Notes under the pieces: model-generated
Seen by the model: only the letters and a program-made list of their open reading frames with translations
Databases searched by the model: none
Told to the model about the DNA's origin: nothing
Shown: in pieces, positions 5,811 through 35,593 of the stretch
Layout: each line of letters starts with the position of its first letter
Position numbering within the stretch: position 1 is the stretch's first letter
NCBI GenBank assembly: GCA_016191015.1
Contig: JACPPM010000264.1
Location: forward strand, 1-35,680
Length of the DNA: 35,680 nt
Direction of reading: 5' to 3'
Origin: Acidobacteriota bacterium
GTDB lineage: Bacteria; Acidobacteriota; CAIWXX01
Position numbers and translations under genes: made by a program

Positions 5811-6270
5811 TCCGGCGGTTCCCGCTGCCCAGCTGACGTCGCGACGCCGACTGCTGAACGTCCTGCTCGGCAGCAGTTTCCTCTCGTGGATGGCCGTCCT
5901 GTTGTACCCCGTGCTCAGGTACTTGAAACCGCCGGCCGAAGCCGGCGGCGGCTCGGAGATGACGCTGAGCGATGCGGATCGTACGAAGGTGGTCCAGAAT
6001 GGGTTCAGCATTGTGCGACTGGGCACCGATCGCATCATCGTTTTCCAGGATGCAGCAAAGACGATCCACGCGCTCCAGGCCAAATGCACCCACGAGGGGT
6101 GCACGGTTACGTACAAGGCCGACGAGGGGCTCGTCTGGTGTGCCTGCCATAACGGCAAGTTCGCGCTGGACGGGCGCGTGATCTCGGGACCGCCACCTCG
6201 GCCGCTCGCCGCCTACTCCGTGCGTGGAGACGTGGCGAACCAGATCACCATCGGCCGACAGGGAGCTTGA
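5797..6270 (+). CDS. Rieske iron-sulfur subunit of a cytochrome bc/b6-type complex
   Basis: A 157-residue membrane-anchored [2Fe-2S] protein. The N-terminus has a twin-arginine type motif (SRRRLLN, 15-21) followed by a hydrophobic anchor (about 22-42), as expected for Tat-exported Rieske proteins. Cluster motifs are complete: CTHEGC (C97, H99, C102) and CACHNG (C115, C117, H118). C97/H99 and C115/H118 should ligate the cluster, and C102-C117 should form the stabilising disulfide. ATG 5797 is six bases after GGAGG; an in-frame ATG at 5791 abuts the binding site and is less likely. The cytochrome b gene begins two bases after the stop, so the two almost certainly form one quinol-oxidising complex. 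Confidence 0.93.
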   Translation: METPDPAVPAAQLTSRRRLLNVLLGSSFLSWMAVLLYPVLRYLKPPAEAGGGSEMTLSDADRTKVVQNGFSIVRLGTDRIIVFQDAAKTIHALQAKCTHEGCTVTYKADEGLVWCACHNGKFALDGRVISGPPPRPLAAYSVRGDVANQITIGRQGA

Positions 6271-6272
6271 TC

Positions 6273-9200
6273 ATGGCAGAAGCACCACATCGGCCGTTCC
6301 GTGCATCGATTCTCGAAAAGCCCTGGCGGTGGCTCGACGAGCGTTATCACCTCGATGACGTCGTGGATTTCGTTCGCCACAAAGAGATCCCCATCGGCGG
6401 TCACGCCGTGATTTGGTACTACTTCGGTGGCATCGCGCTCTTCTTCTTCACCGTCCAGATCGTCACCGGCATCCTCCTGCTCATGTACTACGAAGCCGGC
6501 GAGAATACATCCTATGAATCCATGAAATTCCTCGTGGGCAAGGTCCCCTTCGGCTGGCTCATTCGATCCATTCACTGCTGGTCCGCGCACCTCATGGTGA
6601 TCGCGGTCCTCGTCCACATGTTCAGCGTCTTTTTTCTGAGGTCTTATCGCAAGCCACGTGAGCTGACCTGGATGACCGGATTCGGTCTGTTGGGGCTGGT
6701 CCTCACCTTCGGCTTCTCCGGCTACCTGCTCCCGTGGAACGAGCTCAGCTACTTCGCGACTGCCGTGGGCACCGACTCCATGAAGTCTATCCCGTATGTC
6801 GGCGAATGGTTGCTCGAAGTCCTCCGAGGCGGCAAAGAGGTGTCGATCCGCACCCTTCACCGCTTCTTCGCGCTGCACGTCTGCGCCCTCCCAATCGCGA
6901 CCTTCGGCCTCGTCGCCTTCCATATGGTCCTCGTCCAGAGGCAGGGAATGGCAGCTCCGGAGGCTCACGATGATACTGCCGCATCGAAACTGGGCGCCAT
7001 GCGTTTCTTCCCGAACTTCGCGATGCGCGACGTGCTGCTCTGGGTGCTCTGCATGAACATCCTCGCCATCCTCGCCGTCTGGCTTCCCCACGGCCCCGGA
7101 ATCCCGGGAATGGAATGGAACATCGGCGACAAGGCCGACCCGCTCAAGCCGGCCTATCCCGGCATCAAGCCCGAGTGGTACTTCCTCTGGGTCTACCAGA
7201 TGCTCAAGGAGTTCCCGGCGCACATCCTTGGCATGGAGGGACCTCAGGCCTGCATGTTCATCGCCTCGCTCCTCATGGCGGCATGGCTCCTTGTTCCTGT
7301 CTTGAATCGCAGCTCGCAGCGCGGAAGGAAGAGCCCTGCATTCGAAGATTTCGGCGTCGCAGTCGTGCTGTTTCTCGCGTTCCTGACGCTCAAGGCGTGG
7401 GACCTCGGCGTCCACGTGCCGCACGGCGAGGATCCTGCCGCGAAGCCCGAGCTGGTGCAGATCATCAACCGGAACTCAGCAGGTGTCATCATGTTGCTCG
7501 GTCTCGGGATCACCGTTTTGCGGCGCATGTGGTACGGAGCCAGCCACTTTGCCTTCACCGCGATCGCTCTGCTGCAGGCAATCCTGCACGGCTTCGTGGG
7601 ACTCTCGTATCTGGCCGCGAGCGGCGCATGCACACTCCTGTTCGGGGTCGCCGTGGCCTTTCACGCGCGCCGCGCGAGGCGCGAGCGACTCGCCGCTGCC
7701 TGCCTCCTCGGTTGCCTCCTCTTCTCCCGACCATCCGCAGCGCAGGAGCCGCAGGCGGCAGCCCAAGCAGGGAATCAGATGCCTGTGGAGAAGTGGCCCG
7801 AGGACTTCCGGAAGCTGTTTGATGCGAACGAGAACGGGAAGCCGATCGTGCCACCTGAGGCGCAGGCCTTTTTCCGGAGGCTGCCCGGTCACGCACAGAC
7901 TCTCTTTTTTTCCGGCGTAGAATCCGGTCTGCTTTCCTCGCCGGCCCAGCTCGCCAGCCTGCTCTCTCTCGACCTCGACGACCGCAAGATCGAGCTGCTT
8001 CTCTCGGACAACTGCGTGCTCTGCCACACCAACCCGGACATGCAGAGCGACGAAACGCTCTTCCGTCTGCGGGACGGCGATCCGGTGGAGCGCGAGAAAG
8101 ACCCCTACCGGCACCTGGACGTGCGCGAGATCGTCTCCGACGTCCACTTCCGCCAGGGCTTGATGTGCGCTGGGTGCCACGGTGGATCACCGGCTGGCAC
8201 CGAGATGGATGACGAAATCTATGAGCGCTGGCCCGAGGCGTCCAAGCGCAAGGCCGACAGGACCTGGGTCCCGGAGTTTTGCACAGTGCGCTGCCACGCA
8301 AACGCGGAATTCATGCAGCGGTTCAACCCGTCCTTGCCGGTGGACCAGATGCTCAAGTACCGCGAGAGCCACCACGGGCGACTCCTGCTGGGCAAGAAAG
8401 ACTCCAAGGCGGCGCAGTGCGTCAGTTGCCACGGCGTCCATGGAATTCGCAGCCCCGAGAGCCCGGTCTCCTCAGTGAACGCGGCCAACATCCCGGCGAC
8501 CTGCGGGAAGTGTCACGCCGATCCTCAGTACATGTCAGGCTACACGCTGAGCGACGGCACCACCCCCATCCCGACCGACCAGCTTGAGAAATACCGAAAG
8601 AGCGTGCACGGACTCGCTCTGCTTCAGAAGCACGACATGGGCGCCCCCGCCTGCAACGATTGCCATGGCAACCATGCGGCACTGCCGCCGGAAGTCGGGC
8701 ACATCGCGCAGGTCTGCCGCACGTGCCACGTTGTCAATGGAACCCTGTTCGACGGGAGCCCCCACAAGAAGGCCTTCATCGCGCACCGGTGGCCCGAATG
8801 CGAGACGTGCCATGGCAAACACGACATCAAGAAGACCAACGACGAGATGCTGGCCGTCGCTCAGCCCACCAGCATCTGCGATCCGTGCCACCGCGACTAT
8901 GGCAAGCCCCTCTGCACGGAGACCACCGCGCTCTTCTACAACAGCATCACGCAGGTGCGAGAGGCGGGTGAGGAGATCGAGCGGGCGGCGGGTGAGCTAG
9001 CCGAGATGGGCCTGGAAGTGGACGACTTGCGATTCGGCGTGAGTGGACTGCGCGACTCGCTGCTGCAGTCCAGATCGCTCATCCATTCTTTCAGCCGGAC
9101 CGACTTCTCAAAACCGTACGAAACGGGCATGAAAACCGCCGCTGAGCTGCGCGCGGAGGTCGATCGGATGAGGGGTGAGTACAGCTTTCGTCGCAACTGG

Positions 9201-9305
9201 CTGATCGTCTCCACCCTCTTCATCACGCTGTTTGCAGTTCTCCTCTATATGCGGATCAGACTCGCAGACAAACAGGGGGGGTACAGGCCGCCGGGCGCGG
9301 CATAG
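6273..9305 (+). CDS. Cytochrome b (b6 + subunit IV) fused to a nine-site multihaem cytochrome c
   Basis: A 1010-residue fusion. Residues 1-225 are the cytochrome b N-terminal domain with haem ligands H101/H115 and H202/H217; the 15-residue step of the second pair is b6-like. Residues 245-465 are the C-terminal domain with the quinol-site PEWY motif at 300-303 and further membrane helices. Residues 472-491 (basic RARRER, then a hydrophobic run ending PSAAQE) look like a retained signal peptide. The periplasmic part (492-970) has eight CxxCH sites, at C581, C632, C716, C744, C794, C815, C843 and C869, plus one CxxxCH at C670. A helical region and a C-terminal anchor (about 976-992) follow. ATG 6273 is seven bases after AGGGAG. 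It probably passes electrons from quinol via the haem wire to a periplasmic acceptor; no separate cytochrome c1 is seen. Confidence 0.93.
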   Translation: MAEAPHRPFRASILEKPWRWLDERYHLDDVVDFVRHKEIPIGGHAVIWYYFGGIALFFFTVQIVTGILLLMYYEAGENTSYESMKFLVGKVPFGWLIRSIHCWSAHLMVIAVLVHMFSVFFLRSYRKPRELTWMTGFGLLGLVLTFGFSGYLLPWNELSYFATAVGTDSMKSIPYVGEWLLEVLRGGKEVSIRTLHRFFALHVCALPIATFGLVAFHMVLVQRQGMAAPEAHDDTAASKLGAMRFFPNFAMRDVLLWVLCMNILAILAVWLPHGPGIPGMEWNIGDKADPLKPAYPGIKPEWYFLWVYQMLKEFPAHILGMEGPQACMFIASLLMAAWLLVPVLNRSSQRGRKSPAFEDFGVAVVLFLAFLTLKAWDLGVHVPHGEDPAAKPELVQIINRNSAGVIMLLGLGITVLRRMWYGASHFAFTAIALLQAILHGFVGLSYLAASGACTLLFGVAVAFHARRARRERLAAACLLGCLLFSRPSAAQEPQAAAQAGNQMPVEKWPEDFRKLFDANENGKPIVPPEAQAFFRRLPGHAQTLFFSGVESGLLSSPAQLASLLSLDLDDRKIELLLSDNCVLCHTNPDMQSDETLFRLRDGDPVEREKDPYRHLDVREIVSDVHFRQGLMCAGCHGGSPAGTEMDDEIYERWPEASKRKADRTWVPEFCTVRCHANAEFMQRFNPSLPVDQMLKYRESHHGRLLLGKKDSKAAQCVSCHGVHGIRSPESPVSSVNAANIPATCGKCHADPQYMSGYTLSDGTTPIPTDQLEKYRKSVHGLALLQKHDMGAPACNDCHGNHAALPPEVGHIAQVCRTCHVVNGTLFDGSPHKKAFIAHRWPECETCHGKHDIKKTNDEMLAVAQPTSICDPCHRDYGKPLCTETTALFYNSITQVREAGEEIERAAGELAEMGLEVDDLRFGVSGLRDSLLQSRSLIHSFSRTDFSKPYETGMKTAAELRAEVDRMRGEYSFRRNWLIVSTLFITLFAVLLYMRIRLADKQGGYRPPGAA

Positions 9306-23269: not shown

Positions 23270-25645
23270 TCAGGGCTTCGCGTCCACAAGCCCACGGAGT
23301 ATCTCCTCGACCATCCGCTTCAGGCTCCGGCCGGGGTTGATGTTCGGGCCGATGCACGAGGGGCATCCCGAGGCGCACTGGCATTGGTTGAGCACCTCCT
23401 GCGCTTCCGCCAGGAGCCGCGCGGAGAGGCGGTGGAGCGGCTCGCTGAGCCCGATCCCTCCTGGGTAATTGTCGTAGATGAAGACGACCGGCTCGAAATT
23501 GCGCGGAGGCGGCTCGCGCCGGGGTCCTGGTTGCTGGAGCGGGACCTTCGTGCGGTCATCGCAAACGGCCTCCTGCAAGTCGCGGACGTCGCACATCAGG
23601 TAGAGCGGCGCCAGATGGTGGAGAAGGAACGCCAGGCCCCAGACGGCCAAGACGCGCTCGTCCGGGCTCCCCTCGATTGAATCGATCAGCTTCTCGTTGA
23701 TCCTCAACCAGTACGAAGTGGTCTGCAGGTCGTTTTGCGGGAGCTGCTGGTTGCCGTAACCGACGTTCTCCATCGTGTTGAACTTGATCTTCTTGAAGCC
23801 GACGACCTGCCGGGCCACATGGACTTCGCCGTGAGACGACCGCCCGCCGTGCATATCATCGCCGTGGAACTCCTCGAGCACCTTGACATCCCTGTACGAA
23901 ATGGCGTCGGTGAAATAGTCGACCTCGGTCTTCTTCACGTAGGCCTTGCGCTGATCGTAATCCATCTTCTCGACGATGTACCGCTGACTTTCGAGCAGAT
24001 AGATGGCTTTTTCATGAAGCGTCGTCAGGGCCGCGCCGAAGTCAACCTCGGCGATAATCTCCGGCTTCCCCGTCTGATCGACGACGACGAAGTTGTCGGA
24101 GCTGATCGAGCGGAGGCTGACGGCGTCGGCGGGGTACGCCTCCTGGACCCAGAAGTACTTCTCCTGGCTGAGGTGCAGGAAGCCCCGATCGACGAGCATC
24201 GCGAGGATTTCTTTCAGATCGCGTTTCCCGAATCGTTCATGAGCACCGATGGGCAGCTCGAAAGCGGCGCATTTCAGGTGATCGAGAAAGATGCTGAGAT
24301 TGTCCGGGTTGATGAGGCCCATCTCGGGGTTCTGGGAGAAAAAATACGAGGGATGGTTGACGATGAACTGGTCGAGCGGGCTCGAGCTCGCCACGAGCAC
24401 CGCGAGTGACGGGGCGTTGCGACGCCCTGATCTGCCCGCCTGCTGCCAGGTCGAGCTGATCGTGCCGGGGTAGCCGGCCATGATCGAAACGTCGAGATGA
24501 CCGACATCGATGCCGAGCTCGAGGGCGTTGGTCGAGACAACCCCTCGGATCTCACCCGATCGAAGCCCTTCCTCGATCTCGCGCCGGCGTTTCGGCAGGT
24601 AGCCGCCGCGGTACCCGCGAACCGAGTCCGCGTCGAGGACACTCTTCTCGAGGTCCTGCTTCAGATACGACAGGAGCACTTCGGTGTGAAGCCGGCTGCC
24701 GGCGAAGATGATCGTCTGAAACCCGTTCTTGATCAGGCGGGCAGCGAGTGAGCGCGCCTCCTGGAGATACGACCGCCGGATCCCCAGCTCACGGTCGACG
24801 ACCGGCGGGTTGTAGAAGACGAAGTATTTCTCGGCCGCCGGAGAGCCGTTGCGATCGATCAACTCGACATCGCTTTCGGTGATGGCCATCGCCAGCTCTC
24901 GGGGGTTGCCGATCGTAGCCGAGGAGCAGAGGAAGCGGGGGCTGCTGCCGTAGAAGGCGCAGATCCGCTTCAGACGGCGCAACACGTTGCACAGATGACT
25001 TCCGAAGACGCCCCGATACGTATGCAGCTCGTCGATCACCACGAACTCGAGGTTTTCCAGAAACCGCGCCCACTTCGTGTGGCACGGCAGAATCCCGGCG
25101 TGCAGCATGTCGGGGTTGGTGAACGCGATGTGCGATTCGGACCTGATCGCCTTCCTCGCATCACTCGGCGTATCCCCATCGTACGTATAGGTCTTCAGCG
25201 GCGTCGGAAGATAGTTGCTGAGGCGCTTCATTTCCGCGAGCTGGTCCTGGGCCAGTGCCTTCGTCGGGAAGAGATAGAACGCGCGTGCGGATGGCTTCCT
25301 CAGAATCTTGTCAATGACGGGGAGGTTGTAGCACAGTGTCTTTCCCGATGCGGTTGGAGTCACAACGACGACGTTCTTGCCGGCCTGCGCCGCCTCGGCC
25401 GCCATCGCCTGATGGACGTAGAGTTGATCGATGCCGCTGCGCAGGAGCGCTTCGCGAAGCCCGTCGTGGAGAGTCCTCGGGATCTCGGCAAACTCTCCTT
25501 CGCGAGCGGGCATCTGGCGCACAGCCGTGATACGGCCAGATGCGCGGTACCGGTCCTCCAGCTCCCGAACCGCTTCCGTGATCGACTCGATGCGCGAGTA
25601 GAGTTGGAGCTGTGATTCGCTGCTTCCCTCGGGCAGTTCTTTCAT
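23270..25645 (-). CDS. mrfA: DEAD/DEAH-box DNA repair helicase MrfA (YprA type, DUF1998)
   Basis: A 791-residue superfamily 2 helicase. Motif I is TPTASGKT (96-103), motif II DELH (205-208), motif III SSAT, motif V ALELGIDVG and motif VI QQAGRSGRR. The C-terminus has the four-cysteine zinc signature of the family, C755, C757, C761 and C764 (CQCASGCPSC), in the DUF1998/MrfA zinc-binding domain. B. subtilis MrfA is a 3'-5' helicase acting with MrfB on mitomycin C lesions. I placed the start at ATG 25645, though the frame stays open upstream. The protein homology begins here, and TATAAT sits seven bases before this ATG, so the message would be leaderless. mrfB follows on the same strand. The gene is divergent from the blaI-like gene. 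Confidence 0.93.
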   Translation of the reverse strand: MKELPEGSSESQLQLYSRIESITEAVRELEDRYRASGRITAVRQMPAREGEFAEIPRTLHDGLREALLRSGIDQLYVHQAMAAEAAQAGKNVVVVTPTASGKTLCYNLPVIDKILRKPSARAFYLFPTKALAQDQLAEMKRLSNYLPTPLKTYTYDGDTPSDARKAIRSESHIAFTNPDMLHAGILPCHTKWARFLENLEFVVIDELHTYRGVFGSHLCNVLRRLKRICAFYGSSPRFLCSSATIGNPRELAMAITESDVELIDRNGSPAAEKYFVFYNPPVVDRELGIRRSYLQEARSLAARLIKNGFQTIIFAGSRLHTEVLLSYLKQDLEKSVLDADSVRGYRGGYLPKRRREIEEGLRSGEIRGVVSTNALELGIDVGHLDVSIMAGYPGTISSTWQQAGRSGRRNAPSLAVLVASSSPLDQFIVNHPSYFFSQNPEMGLINPDNLSIFLDHLKCAAFELPIGAHERFGKRDLKEILAMLVDRGFLHLSQEKYFWVQEAYPADAVSLRSISSDNFVVVDQTGKPEIIAEVDFGAALTTLHEKAIYLLESQRYIVEKMDYDQRKAYVKKTEVDYFTDAISYRDVKVLEEFHGDDMHGGRSSHGEVHVARQVVGFKKIKFNTMENVGYGNQQLPQNDLQTTSYWLRINEKLIDSIEGSPDERVLAVWGLAFLLHHLAPLYLMCDVRDLQEAVCDDRTKVPLQQPGPRREPPPRNFEPVVFIYDNYPGGIGLSEPLHRLSARLLAEAQEVLNQCQCASGCPSCIGPNINPGRSLKRMVEEILRGLVDAKP

Positions 25646-25652
25646 CCCGAGT

Positions 25653-25680
25653 ATTATACACGCTGTCGGACTGTGGTCCG
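25653..25680 (-). promoter_or_regulatory. Leaderless promoter and palindromic operator of mrfAB
   Basis: On the minus strand TATAAT (25658-25653) ends seven bases before the mrfA ATG, placing the start of transcription at or next to the start codon; there is no Shine-Dalgarno sequence. Immediately upstream is the perfect inverted repeat CGGAC-TGTG-GTCCG (25667-25680). Its CGNAC-N4-GTNCG geometry resembles the Gram-positive SOS (LexA) box CGAAC-N4-GTTCG with two symmetrical changes. Damage-inducible control is therefore possible but unproven. No -35 hexamer is evident. Confidence 0.45.
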
Positions 25681-25725
25681 GTGCTGGCGATACGTAGCCG
25701 CATGACTGGGGTATGGCGACACAAG

Positions 25726-25766
25726 CGCAAACACCTATTGACAATCGGTTTTTGCTTGCGTACAAT
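25726..25766 (+). promoter_or_regulatory. Promoter and operator-like dyad of the blaI-blaR1-czcCBA operon
   Basis: TTGACA (25738-25743), a 17-base spacer and TACAAT (25761-25766) make the best sigma-70 promoter in the window. An inverted repeat, CGCAAACA (25726-25733) and TGCTTGCG (25753-25760), matches at seven of eight positions, is separated by 19 bases and brackets the -35 element, with its right arm abutting the -10. ATTGACAAT (25737-25745) is itself a small dyad. A dimeric repressor bound here would block RNA polymerase; the first gene product is the obvious candidate. GGAGG for the first gene lies at 25779-25783. Confidence 0.65.
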
Positions 25767-25790
25767 CCTCGGGACCCTGGAGGCGACGCG

Positions 25791-26198
25791 ATGATGGTTC
25801 CGGTCGGTCCCCCGTTTCTCGGCGAGCTTGAGATTGCCGTGATGGAGCGCCTCTGGGCCGGGGGACCGTCCGACGTCGAAACGGCACACAGGTCTATTGG
25901 GCACGGCAGAGGGATCACTCTCAACACGATCCAGTCCACGTTGCAGCGCCTCTACAAGAAGGGGTTGCTGGCACGCCACAAGGTCAGCCATGCATATGTC
26001 TATTCGCCGCGCGTGTCTCGCGCGGAGGTGATGGCGCAGATCGTGAATGAAGTGGTCACCGCACTCGCGGGCGGTCGCACCGAGCCGATGCTGGCGGCTT
26101 TTGTCGATCTGGCGTCCCGTGCGGGACGGGACACCCTGGACAGGCTCGAGAAGATGATCGAGCGAAAGAGAGATGAACGCAGGCGGGGCGGCCGGTGA
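25791..26198 (+). CDS. BlaI/MecI/CopY-family winged-helix repressor
   Basis: A 135-residue protein of typical family size. Residues about 10-73 form the winged helix (LGELEIAVMERLWAGGP, recognition helix TLNTIQSTLQRLYKKGLL, wing KVSHAYVYSP). The C-terminal helices would form the dimer. BlaI and MecI bind operator dyads as dimers and are inactivated by proteolysis near residues 101-102 (Asn-Phe in staphylococcal BlaI). Here LAAFVDLA at 101-108 falls in the equivalent place, without the Asn. ATG 25791 is seven bases after GGAGG. Its stop overlaps the start of the M56 peptidase gene (GTGA), the standard repressor-protease pairing, and the metal-efflux genes follow. It probably represses its own operon. 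Confidence 0.92.
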   Translation: MMVPVGPPFLGELEIAVMERLWAGGPSDVETAHRSIGHGRGITLNTIQSTLQRLYKKGLLARHKVSHAYVYSPRVSRAEVMAQIVNEVVTALAGGRTEPMLAAFVDLASRAGRDTLDRLEKMIERKRDERRRGGR

Positions 26199-27187
26199 CG
26201 AATCTAGGCGGAATCGTGGATCTCGCTGCCATGGCCTGGATCGGGTTCACGATCGCGTGGGCTGCGGTCTGTGCCATCTCCTACCCACTCATTCGTTTGA
26301 AACTGATCAGGCTGCGCGCATCACACCGTGCGATGGCCATTGCCACATGGGCCGCTATGCCGCCGGTCGCCGGAGTGCTTCTGACAGGTATCTGCTTCCT
26401 CCCCTCCTCTCTGAGCCTGGCCGGCCTGAGTGCAGACCACTGCCTCGATCACGGCGACGGCCATACGCACATATGTCTGAACCACGGGCCCGAGTCGAGT
26501 GGCCTCACCGCCGCAGGAATCGCAATCGCCACCCTGGTTCCACTGACGGCGCTCCTCGCTCGTGAGCTTCGCGAGTACACCCGCCTCCGTCGGCTGTTGA
26601 GCATGCTTGAGCTCACGAGCCGGAAATGCCGCAATCGCGACATTCGCGTGCTCGACACGCCGATTCCCCTCGCCTTCGCAGCATTCCTCATCCGGCCTCG
26701 TGTGTTCATCTCCTCCGCACTGATCACGTCGCTCCCTCAGCAACTCCTCGATGTGGTCATCGAACACGAGCGCGCGCACGTGCGTCGACGCGATCGTTTC
26801 ATCCGAGCCATCGTCTCCCTACTCTCCGGTTTCTACACCCCTCGGATCCGCACGCGCCTCATCGAAGATCTCTCGCTTGCTTGCGAACAGGCGTGCGACG
26901 AGGAGGCGGCGGCCCGCGTGGGCGACCGCCTGCGGGTCGCAAGCGCGATCCTGGCGGTCGAGAGGATGCGTCAGGAACTGCCCGCGCTCCCGTCTCTCGC
27001 GGGTTCCTCTTTCGGTGGATCGAACATCGCACTGCGCGTCTTCTCCCTTGTTCAAGGCGCGGTCCGTCCGCCCGCATCCGGCCGGCACTGGATCTGGGTC
27101 GGAGTGGCTCTTGCCGGCCTGACTCTCTTGGCGAGCGACACCATTCACCACGCTGCCGAAACGATTCTCACTCCCTTCACGAGGTAA
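26195..27187 (+). CDS. BlaR1-like M56 membrane metallopeptidase with His/Cys-rich extracytoplasmic loop
   Basis: A 330-residue integral membrane peptidase. Predicted helices lie at about 9-30, 45-68, 104-124 and 298-315. The M56 zinc site is HERAH (H191, E192, H195), with an acidic CEQACDEEA block (230-238) that could provide the third ligand. Staphylococcal BlaR1 has a C-terminal penicillin-binding sensor of about 250 residues; this protein ends shortly after the last helix, so it cannot sense beta-lactams that way. The loop between helices 2 and 3, extracytoplasmic in BlaR1, contains H82, C83, H86, H90, H92, C94 and H97 (DHCLDHGDGHTHICLNHG), a plausible metal site. I infer that metal binding outside activates repressor cleavage inside. 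The GTG start overlaps the repressor stop; czcC starts six bases after its stop. Confidence 0.88.
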   Translation: MTNLGGIVDLAAMAWIGFTIAWAAVCAISYPLIRLKLIRLRASHRAMAIATWAAMPPVAGVLLTGICFLPSSLSLAGLSADHCLDHGDGHTHICLNHGPESSGLTAAGIAIATLVPLTALLARELREYTRLRRLLSMLELTSRKCRNRDIRVLDTPIPLAFAAFLIRPRVFISSALITSLPQQLLDVVIEHERAHVRRRDRFIRAIVSLLSGFYTPRIRTRLIEDLSLACEQACDEEAAARVGDRLRVASAILAVERMRQELPALPSLAGSSFGGSNIALRVFSLVQGAVRPPASGRHWIWVGVALAGLTLLASDTIHHAAETILTPFTR

Positions 27188-27193
27188 CTCCAC

Positions 27194-28498
27194 ATGCCGC
27201 CAACACACCCCCGCAGTTTCGGCACAACACCGATCGTCAATCGGAGATTGCTTTCGCTACTCGGTCTCGGCCTAGCCATCTGGATCACCGTGCCCTCAAT
27301 CAAAGCCGGTGAGACACTGACTCTGGATGAGGCAATCGCCCGGGCGCTGGAAGAAAATCCGGAGTTGCTGGCTACACGGCTTGAAGTGCAGGCGCGAGAG
27401 GCGAGAATCTCCCAGGCAGGGGTTCTTCCCAACCCCGAGTTCTTCGTGCTGAGTGAAGATATCGGAGGTTCGGGTGCCTATGAGGGGTTCGCAAGATCGC
27501 AGACTACCGCGCAGGTGAGCCAGCGGGTCGAGCTTGGAGGAAAACGGGGCGCCCGCAGGGATGTCGCGTCATCCAACCGGGACGTAGCAAGCGGCGCACA
27601 TGACCTGAAGCGTCGTGAAATTGTGGCAGACGTACGGAGGGCTTTCTACACAGTCCTTGTCGCTCAGCATCGTGTCCACCTGATGGAAGAGCTGATGGGG
27701 GTATCCATGCAGTTTTCGAGAATTGTTCAAGAACGGATTCAGGCAGGAAAGATCCCCCCGATCGATGATGTAAAAGCAACGGCGATTGTCGCATCTGCGG
27801 AGATCGATTTGGCGCGCTCTCAGCGCGAGCTGGATTCCGCGCGCTACGGGCTTGCTGCAGCAATCGGCATTACCGGACCGGACTTTGGACCGGCGCAGGG
27901 TGAGTTGTTCCTGGGATCTCCTGAAGTTGCGCTGCAGGAGTTGATCGACTCGCTGTCGAAAAGCCCGGAGCTGCAAAAAGCGGCTGCTGAAATCGATGAA
28001 AGGGAAGCGCTGCTCGCAATCGAAAGAGCGAAACGAATTCCTGACATCACTCTCACCGGCGGATACCGCACACTTGAACCCACGAATGATCATACTTTTG
28101 TCATCGGGGCTTCCATTCCGCTTCCTCTCTTTGACCGCAACAAGGGCGGAATTCTGGAGGCACAAAGAAGGGTCCTCAGCGCCGAACAAGCAAGGAATTC
28201 TGTTGAAGCGCAGATCAAGAATTCCCTGGCCGGTGCCTATCAACTGTATTCAGCCGCCAAAGCAGAGGCGCAGGCTCTGCAGGAACGCGTTTTGCCGGCC
28301 AATCAAACATCCTTTGACGCCATCAGCGAAGGGTATCGACTGGGCAAGTACGGTTATCTGGATGTGCTGGAAGCGCAAAGAAGTCTGTTTCAATCACGAC
28401 TTCAACTGCTGCGGGTATTGGGTGATTTGCATGCGGCGGCAGCGGAAATCGAAAGAATCACTGGGAAAGAACTTCTGACGGAGGCACGCCATGAATAG
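27194..28498 (+). CDS. czcC: CzcC/TolC-family outer-membrane efflux protein
   Basis: A 434-residue outer-membrane factor of the OEP family. A signal sequence (about 17-38, ending SIKAGE) has no lipobox cysteine. It is followed by LTLDEAIARALEENPEL, the usual entry of the first OEP repeat, then long coiled-coil helices (about 120-210 and 330-430) and a second repeat (LDVLEAQRSLFQSRLQ). It should form the trimeric channel through the outer membrane for the CzcBA pump. ATG 27194 is six bases after the M56 gene stop and has GAGG nine bases upstream. The next gene overlaps its end by eight bases. From within this gene onward, codon use shifts toward AAA/GAA and lower GC than in the regulator genes. 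Confidence 0.9.
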   Translation: MPPTHPRSFGTTPIVNRRLLSLLGLGLAIWITVPSIKAGETLTLDEAIARALEENPELLATRLEVQAREARISQAGVLPNPEFFVLSEDIGGSGAYEGFARSQTTAQVSQRVELGGKRGARRDVASSNRDVASGAHDLKRREIVADVRRAFYTVLVAQHRVHLMEELMGVSMQFSRIVQERIQAGKIPPIDDVKATAIVASAEIDLARSQRELDSARYGLAAAIGITGPDFGPAQGELFLGSPEVALQELIDSLSKSPELQKAAAEIDEREALLAIERAKRIPDITLTGGYRTLEPTNDHTFVIGASIPLPLFDRNKGGILEAQRRVLSAEQARNSVEAQIKNSLAGAYQLYSAAKAEAQALQERVLPANQTSFDAISEGYRLGKYGYLDVLEAQRSLFQSRLQLLRVLGDLHAAAAEIERITGKELLTEARHE

Positions 28499-29963
28499 GC
28501 CGATCATCATCATAATCGCTTCGGTCACGATTCTGGGAGCGCTGATCGCGTTCCCACTGTTAAGAAAGAACAGAGCCGTGCAGCAACATGAAACGGATGA
28601 GATTGCGGATGCTCCGAAAGGGCCGCATGGCGGAAGACTCCTGATACAAGATGCTTTTCAGTTGGAAATCACCCTTTTCGAAAAAGGTGTCCCTCCGGAA
28701 TTCCGCTTATACGTATTTGACCGAGAGAAGCCGCTGGACCCAGCTTCCGTCGCTGCCGAGATTCGACTGAAGCGGCTGGGCGGGCGTGAAGACGTTTTTC
28801 ATTTCGCCAAAGAAGCGGATTACCTGAGAGGTAATGCGGTAGTAGAAGAACCTCATTCGTTCGATGTAAGCGTCGCGGCAACCTATCAGGGGAAAACGAA
28901 TCGCTGGGAATATGCGTCGTACGAAGGACGCACAACGATGACTCCCGAGGGGGTTCAGTACTCAGGGATTGTTGTGGAAACGGCTGGTCCGGCAAAGATG
29001 AAAACGGTATTGGAGCTTTCCGGGGAAGTGATCCTTAACCCCGACCGGCAAACCCATGTGCCGCCGCGCTTTGATGGAATCATTGCCTCGGTGCCGGCAA
29101 GTCTTGGTGATCGTGTCGTCAAAGGAGAGGTTCTGGCGACTCTGGAAAGCACGCAACTGGCGGAAGAAAAGAGCGCTTACGTGAGGGCGATGTACGAACA
29201 TCAATTCGCACAGAAGGCGTACGAGCGCGAACAGATGCTTTGGGACAGGAAGATCACCTCCGAACAGGATTATCTTGCGACAAAACGGGAGTATGAAGAA
29301 GCAAGAATTCGTTTTCAAACCGCCGCCCAGAAGCTGAAGGCAGCCGGAATTCCGTCAGAAGGGATCGAAACCGACGAGGACATTTCCACTCACATCATTC
29401 GAAGCCCGATTAGCGGCACGATCATCGAAAAGGACCTGGCCATCGGTGAGGCAGTACAGTCGGAGGAGAAGCTCTTCGTGATTGCAGACCTGTCGGAACT
29501 GTACGGTGAGATCACGATTCCTGCTCAATCAATCAGCGCTGTGCGGAAAGGCCAAGCCGTGACCGTGGTTTCAGATGTCCTCGATCAGGAGATCCAGGGC
29601 CGGCTGACATACGTGGGGCCTTTGTTGGGAGAAAAGACACGCTCCGCCAAAGGACGTGTTTTGATTCAAAATCCGGAAGGCGCCTGGAGACCCGGAGTAT
29701 TCGTGAAAGTCCGTGTGGTTCAGGAAGAAATCGATGTCCCTGTTGCCGTCAAGGCTTCCGGGCTGCAAACGTTCCGCGATTGGAATGTGGTGTTTCTTGC
29801 CGTTGGAAACGAGTTTGAGATTCGTCCGCTGGAACTGGGCCGCAGAGACGGCCAGTGGGTGGAAGTGCGTTCGGGAATCTCCCCTGGCGAACGCTATGTT
29901 TCCGAAAACAGCTTCCTCGTAAAGGCCGACATTGAGAAATCCGGCGCGAAGCACGACCACTGA
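28491..29963 (+). CDS. czcB: CzcB-type periplasmic adaptor (membrane fusion) protein of a metal RND pump
   Basis: A 490-residue adaptor anchored by an N-terminal helix (about 4-24, PIIIIIASVTILGALIAF). It has an extra N-terminal domain with GPHGGRLL (45-52), often seen in heavy-metal adaptors, then the barrel-sandwich and lipoyl halves (PRFDGIIASVPASLGDRVVKG and IIRSPISGTIIEKDLAIGEAV) flanking an alpha-hairpin (about 225-285). A beta-barrel and a membrane-proximal domain follow. The C-terminus, GAKHDH, is short and weakly His-containing. It should link CzcA to CzcC and may pass metal to the pump. ATG 28491 is six bases after GGAGG and overlaps czcC by eight bases. Confidence 0.92.
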   Translation: MNRPIIIIIASVTILGALIAFPLLRKNRAVQQHETDEIADAPKGPHGGRLLIQDAFQLEITLFEKGVPPEFRLYVFDREKPLDPASVAAEIRLKRLGGREDVFHFAKEADYLRGNAVVEEPHSFDVSVAATYQGKTNRWEYASYEGRTTMTPEGVQYSGIVVETAGPAKMKTVLELSGEVILNPDRQTHVPPRFDGIIASVPASLGDRVVKGEVLATLESTQLAEEKSAYVRAMYEHQFAQKAYEREQMLWDRKITSEQDYLATKREYEEARIRFQTAAQKLKAAGIPSEGIETDEDISTHIIRSPISGTIIEKDLAIGEAVQSEEKLFVIADLSELYGEITIPAQSISAVRKGQAVTVVSDVLDQEIQGRLTYVGPLLGEKTRSAKGRVLIQNPEGAWRPGVFVKVRVVQEEIDVPVAVKASGLQTFRDWNVVFLAVGNEFEIRPLELGRRDGQWVEVRSGISPGERYVSENSFLVKADIEKSGAKHDH

Positions 29964-29977
29964 CAGAGGTTAAGGCG

Positions 29978-32900
29978 ATGTTGGAAAGAATCATACGATT
30001 TTCGATTCGCAATCGGTGGTTTGTGCTGGTGCTTACTCTGGTCATGGCTGCGGCAGGAATCCACAGTTTCCGCGATCTTCCTATCGACGCGGTTCCGGAT
30101 ATCACCAATGTTCAGGTTCAAATCAATACCGAAGCTCCGGGCTACTCTCCACTGGAGGTGGAGCAGCGAATCACTTTTCCTGTGGAATCAGCGATGGCCG
30201 GATTGCCTCGCCTTGATTGCACACGTTCCATTTCCCGCTACGGGCTCTCCCAGGTAACTGTGGTCTTTGAAGACGGCACCAGTATCTACTTTGCCAGACA
30301 GTTGATCACCGAGCGGCTGCAAGAAACCAAAGGGAAGCTGCCGGAAGGGATTGAGCCGGCGATGGGTCCGATTGCAACGGGCCTTGGAGAAATCTTTCTC
30401 TGGAATGTGGATGCGGAACCGGGAACAAGGAAACCGGACGGAACATCGATAACCTCGACGGATCTTCGAACCATTCAGGATTGGATTATCCGTCCTCAAT
30501 TGCGGAACGTTCCCGGCGTCGCCGATGTGAATTCGATCGGGGGATATACGAAGGAGTATCACGTGACCCCGCAGCCGGAGAAACTGCTGGCCTACAACTT
30601 GAGCTTCTCGGATATCTTGAAGGCGTTGCGCGCAAACAACAGCAACGTCGGCGCCGGCTACGTCGAACACCAGGGCATGCAACTGCTGATCCGCGCGCCG
30701 GGCCAGGTATCGACTGTAGATCAGATCAAGAAGATCATAGTCGACCACCACGACGGGATCCCGATCCATATCGGTGATGTTTCCGATGTTCACATCGGAG
30801 AGGAGATGCGCACCGGCGCCGCCACACAAAACGGCAAAGAGGTTGTTTTGGGAACTGTTTTCATGCTGATTGGCGAAAACAGCCGCACGGTGTCTGAGAG
30901 AGTGGGAGAGAAAATGGAAGAGGTGAACCGTTCGCTCCCGAGCGGTGTGAAGGCAAGTGTAGTGTACGACCGAACAAATCTCGTGAACGCAACGATCCGC
31001 ACCGTGCGAAACAACCTGTTCGAGGGCGCGATCCTGGTCATCGTGATCCTCTTTTTGCTGCTGAGAAACATACCCGCCGCCATCATCACGTCCATGGTGA
31101 TTCCATTGTCGATGCTATTCACCTCGACAGGCATGGTCGCCAACAAGATGAGCGGAAACTTGTTGAGCCTGGGCGCCATTGACTTCGGATTGATTGTCGA
31201 TGGCGCCGTGATCATGGTGGAAAACTTTGTCCGTCGTCTGTCGGAGGCAGAGCGCAGGCTGGGCAGGCAGGTGACGCCTCACGAACGTCTCGAAATCGTT
31301 TACGAAGCTTCCAAGGAAGTGCGGCGCGCCACGGTTTTCGGAAGCGCAATCATCATGACGGTCTATCTGCCGATCCTGACGCTAACCGGGATCGAAGGGA
31401 AAATGTTTTTTCCGATGGCCTTCACCGTAATCCTTGCGTTGTTGGGCGCCATGATCCTGTCCATCACGTTTGTCCCCGCCGCTGTCGGAATATTCCTGAG
31501 GTCCGCTCATTCCGAATCCGACAATGTTGTCATCCGCGGCTTCAAGAAAGGATATGTTCCACTGCTGCAGTATTCGTTGGCGCACAAGAGGACCGTGATT
31601 CTGGGCGGAATCGGAATCGTTGTCCTCACTTTCGGACTGGCAACCCGTATGGGAAGCGAATTCCTCCCCAGCCTGGATGAAGGGGATCTTCTGGTACACG
31701 CGTTGCGGATTCCGGGAACCGGGTTGACTCAAGCCGTGGAAATGCAGCACGTACTGGAAGAGCGTATCAAGGAGTTTCCCGAGGTGGAAAGGGTATTCGC
31801 CAAAATCGGAACGGCTGATATCGCTACGGATCCGATGCCCCCAAGTGTCGCGGATGTTTATGTAATGATGAAACCGCGGAGGGAGTGGCCGGATCCGGAC
31901 AAGTCGAGAGAGGAAGTAGTCCGGCATTTCCAGCAAGAGCTCGAGAAAATCCCCGGCAACAAATACGAATTTACACAACCAATCGAGATGCGATTCAACG
32001 AGCTCATCGCCGGGGTACGGGCCGATGTTGCCGTAAAGATCGTCGGCGACGAGATGGATGTTCTGGTGGAAAGCGGTGAAATAGCACTGCGCATCCTTGA
32101 GTCCATTCCGGGCGTTTCCGATGCCCGCTTGGAACAATTGACCGGGCTCCCTATGCTGACCATTGAAATGGATCGGAACCGGATGGCGCTTCATGGCCTG
32201 AACATTGCGGACGTTCAGGAGGCGGTGGAAATCGCAATTGGCGGAAAGTCGGCGGGTCAGATTTTTGAAGGGGATCGACGCTTTGATCTGATCGTAAGGC
32301 TCCCAGATGCACTGCGACAAAACCTTGAGGCGATGAAAGCGATTCCGATTGCACTGCCGGCGGCAAACGGCGAACATCAGCAATTCATCCCGCTTTCAGG
32401 CGTCGCGAAATTCGAGATCACACAGGGGCCCAATCAGATCAATCGCGAGAACGGGAAACGAGTCGCCATCGTAACCGCCAATGTGAGGGATCGCGACCTC
32501 GGTTCATTTGTTGAAGAAGCTCAGGAGAAGATGAGCGCTTCCCTCACCCTGCCTGCGGGCTACTGGATGGAATGGGGAGGCCAATTCGAACATTTGATTT
32601 CTGCGAGCCGGAGACTCCAGATTGTCGTGCCGATTGCCTTATTGTTGATCTTCACGCTGCTCTTCTTTTCTTTCGGCAGCCTGAAAGACGCGCTTCTGGT
32701 TTTCACGGGAGTTCCTCTGGCCATGACAGGCGGCATCCTCTCGCTCTGGGTACGCGGCATTCCCCTTTCCATCTCCGCAGCGGTGGGCTTCATCGCGCTG
32801 TCCGGAGTCGCCGTCTTGAACGGACTGGTGTTGATTTCGTTTATCAAAACCTTCCGGCATCAAGGGCTCCACATCAAGGAAGCCGTTTTTGAAGCATCCA

Positions 32901-33145
32901 CAACCCGGCTGCGGCCGGTGCTGATGACGGCGCTGGTCGCTTCACTGGGCTTTGTTCCCATGGCCCTTGCAACCGGAAGCGGCGCAGAGGTCCAAAGGCC
33001 GCTGGCTACGGTGGTCATCGGCGGAATCCTGTCTTCTACGCTGCTGACCCTGGTTGTTCTTCCCGTGCTTTACGGCATATTCCACAAGGTGAAAGGAGCG
33101 GGGGGACATCCCCCCGACGCACGGGCATCGGTGTCACGGTCGTGA
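29978..33145 (+). CDS. czcA: CzcA-type heavy-metal RND efflux pump
   Basis: A 1055-residue RND transporter with two halves, each a periplasmic loop and six helices. In helix 4 the motif DFGLIVDGAVIMVEN places D402, D408 and E415 at the same numbers as the proton-relay residues of Cupriavidus CzcA. This pattern marks divalent-metal (Zn/Co/Cd or Ni) exporters rather than the monovalent CusA group. The N-terminus (MLERIIRFSIRNRWFVLV) and DLPIDAVPDITNVQVQI are typical. It should pump metal from periplasm or cytoplasm to the outside with CzcB and CzcC, driven by protons. It starts 14 bases after czcB and ends the operon; the 33146-33336 gap holds nothing I recognise. The exact metal cannot be read from the sequence. 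Confidence 0.95.
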   Translation: MLERIIRFSIRNRWFVLVLTLVMAAAGIHSFRDLPIDAVPDITNVQVQINTEAPGYSPLEVEQRITFPVESAMAGLPRLDCTRSISRYGLSQVTVVFEDGTSIYFARQLITERLQETKGKLPEGIEPAMGPIATGLGEIFLWNVDAEPGTRKPDGTSITSTDLRTIQDWIIRPQLRNVPGVADVNSIGGYTKEYHVTPQPEKLLAYNLSFSDILKALRANNSNVGAGYVEHQGMQLLIRAPGQVSTVDQIKKIIVDHHDGIPIHIGDVSDVHIGEEMRTGAATQNGKEVVLGTVFMLIGENSRTVSERVGEKMEEVNRSLPSGVKASVVYDRTNLVNATIRTVRNNLFEGAILVIVILFLLLRNIPAAIITSMVIPLSMLFTSTGMVANKMSGNLLSLGAIDFGLIVDGAVIMVENFVRRLSEAERRLGRQVTPHERLEIVYEASKEVRRATVFGSAIIMTVYLPILTLTGIEGKMFFPMAFTVILALLGAMILSITFVPAAVGIFLRSAHSESDNVVIRGFKKGYVPLLQYSLAHKRTVILGGIGIVVLTFGLATRMGSEFLPSLDEGDLLVHALRIPGTGLTQAVEMQHVLEERIKEFPEVERVFAKIGTADIATDPMPPSVADVYVMMKPRREWPDPDKSREEVVRHFQQELEKIPGNKYEFTQPIEMRFNELIAGVRADVAVKIVGDEMDVLVESGEIALRILESIPGVSDARLEQLTGLPMLTIEMDRNRMALHGLNIADVQEAVEIAIGGKSAGQIFEGDRRFDLIVRLPDALRQNLEAMKAIPIALPAANGEHQQFIPLSGVAKFEITQGPNQINRENGKRVAIVTANVRDRDLGSFVEEAQEKMSASLTLPAGYWMEWGGQFEHLISASRRLQIVVPIALLLIFTLLFFSFGSLKDALLVFTGVPLAMTGGILSLWVRGIPLSISAAVGFIALSGVAVLNGLVLISFIKTFRHQGLHIKEAVFEASTTRLRPVLMTALVASLGFVPMALATGSGAEVQRPLATVVIGGILSSTLLTLVVLPVLYGIFHKVKGAGGHPPDARASVSRS

Positions 33146-33336: not shown

Positions 33337-35502
33337 CTACTTGGCTTCCAGCGGCACCCATTCGACCACTGATTTCTTGGTCATGTTGTCGGTGGCGGTC
33401 ACTCTGAGCCAGCACAGGCCGGAAGGGAGGTTTGCCGCACGCAGGTCGAAGATGTACTCGACCATCGTGTCGGAGACGCGATTGGGACGTTCGAGGAGCT
33501 TGAACTGCGGCTGCGCGAGATTCCTTCCTGACGTGTCGAGAATCTCCCAATTGATCCCCAAGTCGGGCTCCTTGCTCCCCGCCTCGAACGCGAAGTTATA
33601 CAGCTTGATCAGGAGAGCGCGATCCTTGCCATCCTGGATGTCGGGGTGGAGCTCAACGGCGCATGACTTGCCACGATAGGTCACCGGGAATTCGATCCCA
33701 TGTCTCGCGATGCGCGCCGGAGGCTTTTGGGGGTCGTATCCGACGGCGTTGGACCAGTTGGACTTGGAGGGCACAAAGAAGGGTGTCGCAACCGAGAAGG
33801 CCTTCGGATCGCTCTTGGTCGTCACCTTGAGGCTCATGGTACCGATGTCCCCGGTGAGATTATTACGGACGATCGTCCGGATTTCATACTCGCGGCCCGG
33901 ACGCAGCAACATGACGTCGGTGTAGCGGATGCCGTTTTGCTGAAGCTTGCCGCCCGCATCGCCGGCCGAAACGCGGCTGAAGCCGTGAGCGTACCCTTCG
34001 AATCTTTTCTCCGGGCCGAGCGCGAATGCATAGAGCTCGATCTGCAGCTCGCGCTTCTCTTTCGCGAACTGCGTGCCTGGCAACTCGACCGCCACTGCCA
34101 CCGGGCTCAGCCCCTCTTCCTCCGGGAAAAGCAGCGCCTGGGCCTTCATAGTGATGGCATTCAAAGATGAACCGTCATTGACGATTTGCGCGATTTGCGT
34201 CAGCCGTTCATCGCCCGACAGCTCGCTGAAGGGACGCGCATCGTGATACCCGGGCCTGTAGGTGAAGTCGACGCCCGGCCGCGTAACCTCAACCTTGATC
34301 TTGTGGAACTCTCCGGGCTTCCGGCCTGACCTCGCGGGTGGCGTGTAGCCAAGCAGGTAGAAGGATTCGGTCGTGTCGAGCACGTCGGTGAGCGCACTGT
34401 CCATCTCGTTCGAGTTCTTGTACAGCTTCCCGCCCGTCTCCTTCGCCATCGAGAACAACGACGCCTGCCGTCGTCCGGTTGCCTGCGGATCGGATGTCGT
34501 CTGGAGCGTGAAATCCAGGTTCGAGTCGGAAGCGAGGCCGGCGGCATCGAGTGCGAAAATCCGGCAGTCGGAGGACGAGAAGTAGTTCATCGCCTGTTCC
34601 ATGAGGTCCGACAGGTCGGTGGCGATTTCGCGCGCCTGCGCCTCGCCGCTGGCCGCCATCGTCTCGAAGTCTCCATGCACAAACGTCTCGGCCTCCTGCG
34701 CTGTGTCCCTGATGTCGCGGACGCCGAATGCCTTCGTATCGAATCCGGTCGAGAAGAGGATCAGGAACTTCCTGCCTGGCAGGAGCTCGAGCTCGCGGGC
34801 GAAGGTGCGGATGTTCTCCAGGTAGATGCCGACCGTGTCCCGATAGTACTGCTCATTGTCGCGATTCACCTTCGCATTCATCTCGCGCATCCACTGGGCC
34901 GTGTATACTTTGGCAACAGCGCCCGGTTTCGCCTCTGTTTCTTCGCCGCCTAGCATTCCGATCGGCGCTTCACTCAGGACCATCGACTCATTGAAGAAAC
35001 CAGCGGAGTCGATCACCGTATCGAACTTGCGTTGGACCCCGAGCGAGTTGATCGCAGAACGCAGGAGGTTCTTGTCCGACGTGAAGTTACAGACCATGAA
35101 GACGCCCTTGAGCGTCGAGAATGCATAGACAGCAGCGCGGTCATCAGCGGGGAGCATCGTATCGACGAACTTGTAGCCGGCTTCCTGTCCACGTACCAGA
35201 GCGGCCGGCGTGTTGAAGGTCACGTCGTAGAGAAGGATGAAGTTCCGGCGCGTCACCGGCGGTGGCAGCTTCTGCTCATCTCGCTTGTTGAGATCGATCG
35301 GGAAGAAGAGCTCGATCTTCTGCTCTTTCCCGTCTTCCCAAACCTTGAAGTCCTCGAGCTTCAGGTCCATCACCGCATTGCCGTCCTTGTCGCGGACAAA
35401 AACCGGCACTTCGACGACGGATACCCCCGCCTCTTCCTTCGGCTGATCCGCCGCCGCGACGACCGCACCAAACAAGATCGTTCCCAGCCACGCGTGTCTC
35501 AT
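33337..35502 (-). CDS. Secreted protein with acidobacterial VWFA-related domain
   Basis: A 721-residue exported protein. ATG 35502 lies six bases after AGGAGG and opens a signal peptide (MRHAWLGTILFGAVVAAADQ); an upstream in-frame extension is rejected. Residues about 26-66 contain the strand pattern VEVPVFVRDKDGNAVMDLKLEDFKV seen at the start of acidobacterial VWFA-related proteins. The A-domain follows (NFILLYDVTFNTPAALVRG, about 88-106, through DRAAVYAFST and a FLILFSTGFD strand). The metal-site motif is DVTFNT rather than DxSxS, so metal-dependent adhesion is doubtful. The rest (about 370-721) is beta-rich. It is probably surface or periplasmic and binds protein. This family is the main taxonomic pointer in the window. 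Confidence 0.85.
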   Translation of the reverse strand: MRHAWLGTILFGAVVAAADQPKEEAGVSVVEVPVFVRDKDGNAVMDLKLEDFKVWEDGKEQKIELFFPIDLNKRDEQKLPPPVTRRNFILLYDVTFNTPAALVRGQEAGYKFVDTMLPADDRAAVYAFSTLKGVFMVCNFTSDKNLLRSAINSLGVQRKFDTVIDSAGFFNESMVLSEAPIGMLGGEETEAKPGAVAKVYTAQWMREMNAKVNRDNEQYYRDTVGIYLENIRTFARELELLPGRKFLILFSTGFDTKAFGVRDIRDTAQEAETFVHGDFETMAASGEAQAREIATDLSDLMEQAMNYFSSSDCRIFALDAAGLASDSNLDFTLQTTSDPQATGRRQASLFSMAKETGGKLYKNSNEMDSALTDVLDTTESFYLLGYTPPARSGRKPGEFHKIKVEVTRPGVDFTYRPGYHDARPFSELSGDERLTQIAQIVNDGSSLNAITMKAQALLFPEEEGLSPVAVAVELPGTQFAKEKRELQIELYAFALGPEKRFEGYAHGFSRVSAGDAGGKLQQNGIRYTDVMLLRPGREYEIRTIVRNNLTGDIGTMSLKVTTKSDPKAFSVATPFFVPSKSNWSNAVGYDPQKPPARIARHGIEFPVTYRGKSCAVELHPDIQDGKDRALLIKLYNFAFEAGSKEPDLGINWEILDTSGRNLAQPQFKLLERPNRVSDTMVEYIFDLRAANLPSGLCWLRVTATDNMTKKSVVEWVPLEAK

Positions 35503-35593
35503 CACAAACCTCCTCCCCATCTGTTCATACGCTTCGCGGAGCACCTCGCGTCCCCTCAACTATCGCACAACAACACTTGGCGTGTCATCCTAA

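Follow-up and report, generated by a model that had tools for sequence, protein, structure and literature searches.

A BlaR1-like membrane protease with a conserved His/Cys loop as the likely metal-responsive regulator of an RND metal pump operon

The 35,680-nucleotide stretch of acidobacterial DNA analysed here (the window) carries an operon in which a BlaI-type repressor and a peptidase M56 membrane protein precede the genes of a heavy-metal pump, in the order blaI-M56-tolC-hlyD-czcA. The genes overlap or nearly touch, and the repressor gene overlaps the M56 gene (Table 1). Based on the sequence, we consider it likely that the pair forms a metal-responsive switch of the BlaR1/BlaI type, in which a small extracytoplasmic metal site would act as the sensor and a divalent-cation RND pump would be the system under control. 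As a member of peptidase M56, the window protein would work like BlaR1 with BlaI, without the beta-lactam sensor domain. Since these genes form one probably self-regulated set with a heavy-metal pump, the M56 protein most likely turns the pump on under external metal.

Table 1. Positions in the window of the operon genes and of the motifs and candidate regulatory sites discussed in the text.
Feature	Position	Strand	Remarks
Operator O1 (candidate), AACACCTATTGACAATCGGTTTT	25730..25752	+	23-bp palindrome overlapping the blaI promoter
Sigma-70-type promoter, TTGACA-17-TACAAT	25738..25766	+	11/12 consensus match; -35 inside O1; predicted
BlaI/MecI/CopY-type repressor	25791..26198	+	Pfam Penicillinase_R 8.1e-23; no Cys
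M56 (BlaR1-like) membrane metalloprotease	26195..27187	+	330 aa; GTG start; without penicillin-binding domain
Extracytoplasmic loop EL1, residues 68-98 (predicted)	26396..26488	+	between predicted helices 42-67 and 99-137; no K/R in 46-122
Motif D81-H82-C83-x2-H86-x3-H90-x-H92-x-C94-x2-H97	26435..26485	+	eight residues invariant in nine orthologues
Catalytic HExxH, H191-H195	26765..26779	+	H191ERAH; invariant in orthologues
Catalytic ExxxD, E231-D235	26885..26899	+	E231QACD; invariant in orthologues; BlaR1 equivalent E242xxxD
Extracytoplasmic tail motif D315-x2-H318-H319-x2-E322	27137..27160	+	end of last helix
Outer-membrane factor (TolC/CzcC-like)	27194..28498	+	Pfam OEP 5.9e-49; NCBIfam IhpA 210 bits, below cut-off
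Operator O2 (candidate), 32 bp inside tolC	27226..27248		19/23 to consensus
Periplasmic adaptor (CzcB-like)	28491..29963	+	Pfam HlyD_D23 1.5e-37; NCBIfam RND_mfp above cut-off
RND metal pump (CzcA/CusA family)	29978..33145	+	TIGR00914 1576 bits, cut-off 701
Pump TM4 signature DFGLIVDGAVIMVEN	31181..31225	+	HME1/HME2 type, divalent cations

The M56 protein matches the peptidase M56 family PF05569 with 40.4 bits, above the Pfam cut-off of 31. A Pfam scan of the protein returned no transpeptidase or penicillin-binding domain and the chain stops at residue 330, directly after the helix of residues 297-329 and 11 residues past H319, which bears out the claim of the earlier note that the penicillin-binding domain is absent. 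A phmmer sequence search of the PDB with the protein gave no meaningful match; Foldseek returned S. aureus BlaR1 (8exs) as the top PDB match of the predicted model, with a probability of 1.00 and an E value of 2.6e-3. AlphaFold2 predicts helices at residues 2-37, 42-67, 99-137 and 297-329, placing the His/Cys loop between helices 2 and 3, as had been claimed. The pLDDT falls below 50 across residues 70-103, with helices predicted on either side, and EL1 is a low-confidence region in both structure models. In BlaR1 the N and C termini are outside and EL1 connects helices 2 and 3 (PMC9834060). The charge distribution points the same way: there is no Lys or Arg in residues 46-122 and there are five in residues 34-45 and another five in 123-133, so that by the positive-inside rule EL1 is predicted to lie outside; a cytoplasmic loop was ruled out by the same missing charges. 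Charge bias, AlphaFold2, Foldseek and the BlaR1 topology all agree with the outward orientation that the earlier note had proposed as a point to check, and the predicted architecture is one of four membrane helices, an outward EL1 and a cytoplasmic protease.

The translation reproduces at their exact positions the five His and two Cys that had been noticed in residues 82-97 (H82, C83, H86, H90, H92, C94 and H97, coded within 26438-26485). Only 6 of 20,000 shuffles of the M56 protein reached seven His and Cys residues in 16. Our orthologue set comprised nine pump-linked M56 proteins, namely that of the window and eight more from its phylum, with pairwise identities of 24-89% (median 28%). D81 and all seven His/Cys residues are invariant in their alignment, the common pattern being DHC-x2-H-x2/3-H-x-H-x-C-x2-H, and so are H191, E192, H195, D200, E231, D235, H318, H319 and E322; eight of the 28 invariant columns are concentrated in the 17-residue motif (hypergeometric 1.4e-5). 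Chance clustering of His and Cys was ruled out by the shuffles together with the invariance in orthologues.

The loop Cys are not universal, since the gammaproteobacterial orthologues, plasmid-borne ones included, have the same operon and HHxxE tail and carry an HWHH loop with no conserved Cys instead. The two conserved Cys of the window protein would lie in an oxidising compartment, and C83 and C94 might form a redox-sensitive disulfide that responds to oxidants or thiol stress, with metals inducing the operon indirectly. We regard this as very unlikely, because a disulfide would account neither for the HHxxE tail nor for the five His, which are invariant, and the gammaproteobacterial orthologues retain operon, tail and operator-like sites without the Cys. 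The loop aligns ambiguously between the two flavours: alignments A1 and A2 suggested H92 as the sole invariant loop residue, and in one loop alignment H86 and H90 pair with HWHH. For this reason H92 is not claimed as the only invariant position of the loop.

The HHxxE tail is a second conserved site, absent from the earlier note, and is located where BlaR1 carries its beta-lactam sensor; going by the topology of BlaR1, it falls outside the cytoplasm, as the loop does. H318, H319 and E322 do not vary in the alignment of His/Cys-loop proteins or in that of HWHH-loop proteins. Because the tail is conserved with the loop and lost with it, the putative metal site probably comprises more than the loop, with the tail as a likely part of it. 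The last helix of BlaR1 is domain-swapped, so that EL1 protrudes beside the sensor of the adjacent monomer. EL1 also occupies the active site of the sensor and continues directly into helix alpha-3, which extends to the protease (PMC9834060). The EL1 of one subunit might thus reach the tail of the other, and we put the chances of a single metal site joining loop and tail at about even. The original reading, a compact extracytoplasmic metal site in the loop, thus gains from the motif conservation and the predicted outward topology, and needs amending in that the site probably extends beyond the loop and that the Cys are not universal.

CopY binds metal directly through Cys. The repressor of the window scores 45.4 bits with the NCBIfam CopY model TIGR02698, below the cut-off of 121.95, and has no Cys, which makes a CopY-like direct metal response unlikely; direct metal sensing of the CopY type was ruled out on this ground, and the M56 protein is therefore the candidate sensor. 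The blaI start is most likely the ATG at 25791 and not 25713, where the longest ORF begins, since the predicted promoter and the candidate operator take up 25730-25766. O1 has two mismatches to the palindrome of the orthologues, AAAACCGATTGACAATCGGTTTT, and no such site is expected in the shuffled window. An O1-type element stands upstream of blaI in the gammaproteobacterial and most related operons, and the sequence common to the orthologues at this place is AAAACCGATTGNCNATCGGTTTT. The offset of O2, 32 bp from the tolC start, is found also in most gammaproteobacterial loci and in loci L134 and L137. O1 and O2 are the top two sites both in the window and in the 6.43-Mb genome, with a genome search pattern that admits the window's own T and thereby slightly favours the rank of O1, leaving that of O2 unaffected. 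The Arg codon within O2 is CGG in 22 of the 22 gammaproteobacterial loci examined, which are related and do not amount to 22 independent cases, and CGG accounts for 6.8% of the Arg codons in these operons; the retention of a rare codon suggests that the constraint on O2 is on the DNA and not on the peptide.

A second clade of M56 proteins with a His/Cys loop (L086-L097) is without the O1-type element; L090 has the palindrome CTACA-GTC-TGTAG, to which L093 and L097 appear to have related sequences. An Rfam scan of the locus found no RNA element. On the other strand a helicase-like ORF (window 23270-25939, minus strand) crosses the blaI promoter in its longest, GTG-started form; the gene probably begins further inside this ORF, near 25640.

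The M56 fold and the BlaI partner would also be expected of an ordinary BlaR1/MecR1-like sensor of beta-lactams or of the cell wall that happens to neighbour a pump. Such a sensor is extremely improbable here, as the penicillin-binding domain is absent, the operon order is kept in two phyla and the operator-like palindrome is repeated inside the pump operon.

By its TIGR00914 score above cut-off and by DFG-x3-DGA-x3-VEN in TM4, the window pump is of the divalent HME1/HME2 type, whose signature is associated with Zn, Co, Cd and Ni (PMC3637150). Among the relatives, the same loop motif accompanies DFG..DGA, MVDGS, LVDAS and LVDDA pumps. Since one loop occurs with several TM4 types, the pump does not fix the metal identity, and reading the metal from the pump type was ruled out by these four types. 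The pump gene is followed by that of a 740-residue protein (33337-35559, minus strand) with no Pfam match at 0.001, which looks VWA-like by eye. Elsewhere in the window a single ORF (6267-9305, plus strand) joins a cytochrome b to a multihaem cytochrome c tail with several CxxCH motifs (Pfam Cytochrome_B and Cytochrome_C7/c3).

Relatives were gathered by tblastn on plasmids, by whole-genome searches within two phyla, that of the window and that of Shewanella, and by a single scan of GTDB contigs; pump-linked proteins served as queries, and the sampling is biased accordingly. The gene order blaI-M56-tolC-hlyD-czcA is present in all gammaproteobacterial loci with enough contig and is conserved in two phyla. 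The His/Cys motif recurs in five Pseudomonadota genomes (L133-L137, with Asp replacing the first His in L136), and these proteins are the nearest relatives of the window protein in a tree computed without the loop and tail columns. After dereplication at 70% identity, 26 pump-linked M56 proteins could be compared with 32 unlinked ones. The HHxxE tail is found in 19 of the former and two of the latter (Fisher 1.4e-7, a P value that ignores kinship), the full His/Cys motif in nine and none, and the His/Cys content of the loop is higher in the pump-linked proteins (Mann-Whitney 5e-8, again ignoring kinship). Among the short M56 proteins with no pump beside them, most have a loop of 9 residues and lack HHxxE. 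Motif and pump traits follow clades, with about four changes on the tree, so that their association describes a pattern and does not count as an independent test; testing motif against pump with correction for phylogeny was dropped for want of independent contrasts.

Nested inside a clade possessing both the loop motif and HHxxE are L091 and L092, which kept blaI and M56 and have no adjacent pump; in both, the loop motif is deleted and HHxxE has become HRxxK. In L091 the M56 gene is followed by that of a DUF5916 protein and the context is short, the contig ending 1.1 kb downstream; in L092 the context covers 3 kb. This joint loss of loop and tail where the pump is absent bears on whether metal might have a structural role only, for example as a permanent Zn stapling EL1, the signal then being contact with the adaptor or channel, or envelope stress. 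EL1 is placed where an adaptor could touch it and the number of Cys and His differs between clades, both of which would suit this reading. The ligand set, however, varies between clades while the pump linkage persists; taken with the joint loss, this fits a ligand site better, and we consider a purely structural metal unlikely. A His/Cys-rich segment adjoining a metal pump could also be a periplasmic buffer or chaperone that passes metal to the pump. This too is highly improbable, as the loop is part of an intact protease that has a repressor for partner, with likely operators in the operon, and a buffer needs neither.

The expectation of the earlier note, that the His/Cys positions be conserved beside metal pumps and absent from M56 proteins elsewhere, is supported, with exceptions. 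In its favour are the invariance in the nine proteins, the recurrence in Pseudomonadota and the unlinked proteins, most of which are without the motif. Against it stand the HWHH loops of the gammaproteobacteria, three pump-linked proteins (L101, L102 and L169) that have Cys/His-rich C-terminal tails and no loop motif, and three proteins (L138, L141 and L142) with an EHCH...C..H loop and no pump, encoded divergently from TonB-dependent receptors. L157 and L168 are pump-linked and have neither the loop motif nor a Cys/His-rich tail. A single universal loop motif for all pump-linked M56 proteins was ruled out by the HWHH and Cys/His-tail types.

Under the metal-responsive switch that we favour, the BlaI-like repressor would, without metal, occupy O1 at the promoter and O2 just inside tolC and keep the operon repressed. 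Once a divalent transition metal accumulates outside the inner membrane (by the type of the pump, Zn, Cd, Co or Ni), it would bind the His/Cys loop of EL1, probably along with the HHxxE tail. By analogy with BlaR1, the metal may pull EL1 and tail together and shift helix 3; the cytoplasmic HExxH protease would thereby be activated and cut the repressor, and expression of repressor, sensor and pump would be released.

The window pair resembles BlaR1/BlaI and MecR1/MecI (MEROPS M56) in comprising a membrane zinc protease with HExxH and ExxxD and with a predicted outward EL1 and C terminus, and in having a BlaI-type repressor partner in the same operon. Unlike BlaR1 and MecR1, it has no penicillin-binding sensor domain, the defining feature of the beta-lactam sensors, and has instead a conserved His/Cys EL1, a short HHxxE tail and an RND metal pump as neighbour. 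Its operator-like palindrome, ACCGATTG-NC-NATCGGT, also differs from the classical TACA-N-TGTA type of BlaR1/BlaI systems. With CopY and TcrY it shares the repressor superfamily and the control of metal export, but the repressor here is without the Cys metal hook and below the CopY cut-off. CzcRS, CusRS and similar two-component systems sense extracytoplasmic metal and control czc/cus pumps, whereas here a protease-repressor pair replaces histidine kinase and response regulator. The pump genes themselves are like those of the CzcCBA and IhpABC HME-RND systems (a TIGR00914 pump with DFG-x3-DGA-x3-VEN, a CzcB-like adaptor and a TolC-like channel), and differ in having a BlaI/M56 pair as the likely regulator.

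In the literature searched, M56 proteases are known as beta-lactam sensors. Our search of the open literature (the subscription literature lay outside it) gave no paper joining peptidase M56 with czcA and nothing relevant on M56 with metal pumps, and the annotation of these operons lists only 'M56 family metallopeptidase'. The M56 protein is a likely regulator for metal-pump operons, both chromosomal ones and those carried by conjugative plasmids (Shewanella, an IncC Salmonella plasmid and a Pseudomonas aeruginosa megaplasmid). The conserved metal-type site suggests what a BlaR1-type protease that has lost its penicillin-binding part may sense, and the 30-residue loop with its short tail offers a minimal system for how EL1 movement activates the protease. 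We tentatively propose, at somewhat less than even chances, that the BlaR1-type protease is a general chassis in which swapping EL1 and tail gives different metal-sensor types, with the metal bridging EL1 to the tail of the domain-swapped partner. The same tentative proposal would cover His/Cys loop with HHxxE, HWHH with HHxxE, a Cys/His tail near CusA-like pumps and an EHCH loop near TonB receptors. If true, bacteria would have one more way of sensing metal outside the membrane, in addition to kinases and cytoplasmic repressors.

Several of the relatives merit separate mention. The BlaI-M56 pairs with EHCH loops lie at L138:6814-7776(-), L141:6539-7534(+) and L142:5658-6623(-), with the upstream palindrome ACACCGATTGCCAATCGGTGT at L138, and may represent a variant of the switch that serves metal uptake. 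The M56 proteins with Cys/His tails are encoded at L101:6185-7105(-), L102:6801-7778(-) and L169:6524-7510(+), the tails reading CEC..H..CC, CFCC..CH and WHCHHTNHEACC..HAHC, respectively, and two of the three stand beside a pump with the CusA-like signature AIAIGAMVD. The same operon as in the window occurs on conjugative plasmids, at L185:5603-12761 (P. aeruginosa p2017-45-85) and at L032 (Salmonella IncC plasmid); on the P. aeruginosa plasmid both palindromes are present, the loop is degenerate (TCSAHADALLHLCVWH) and the tail reads LHSVTE. Downstream of M56 at L133 and L137, the pump genes are accompanied by small genes whose products are PII-like proteins, HupE/UreJ-like proteins (by eye) and His-rich GGGHDHGHGHSHGP proteins.
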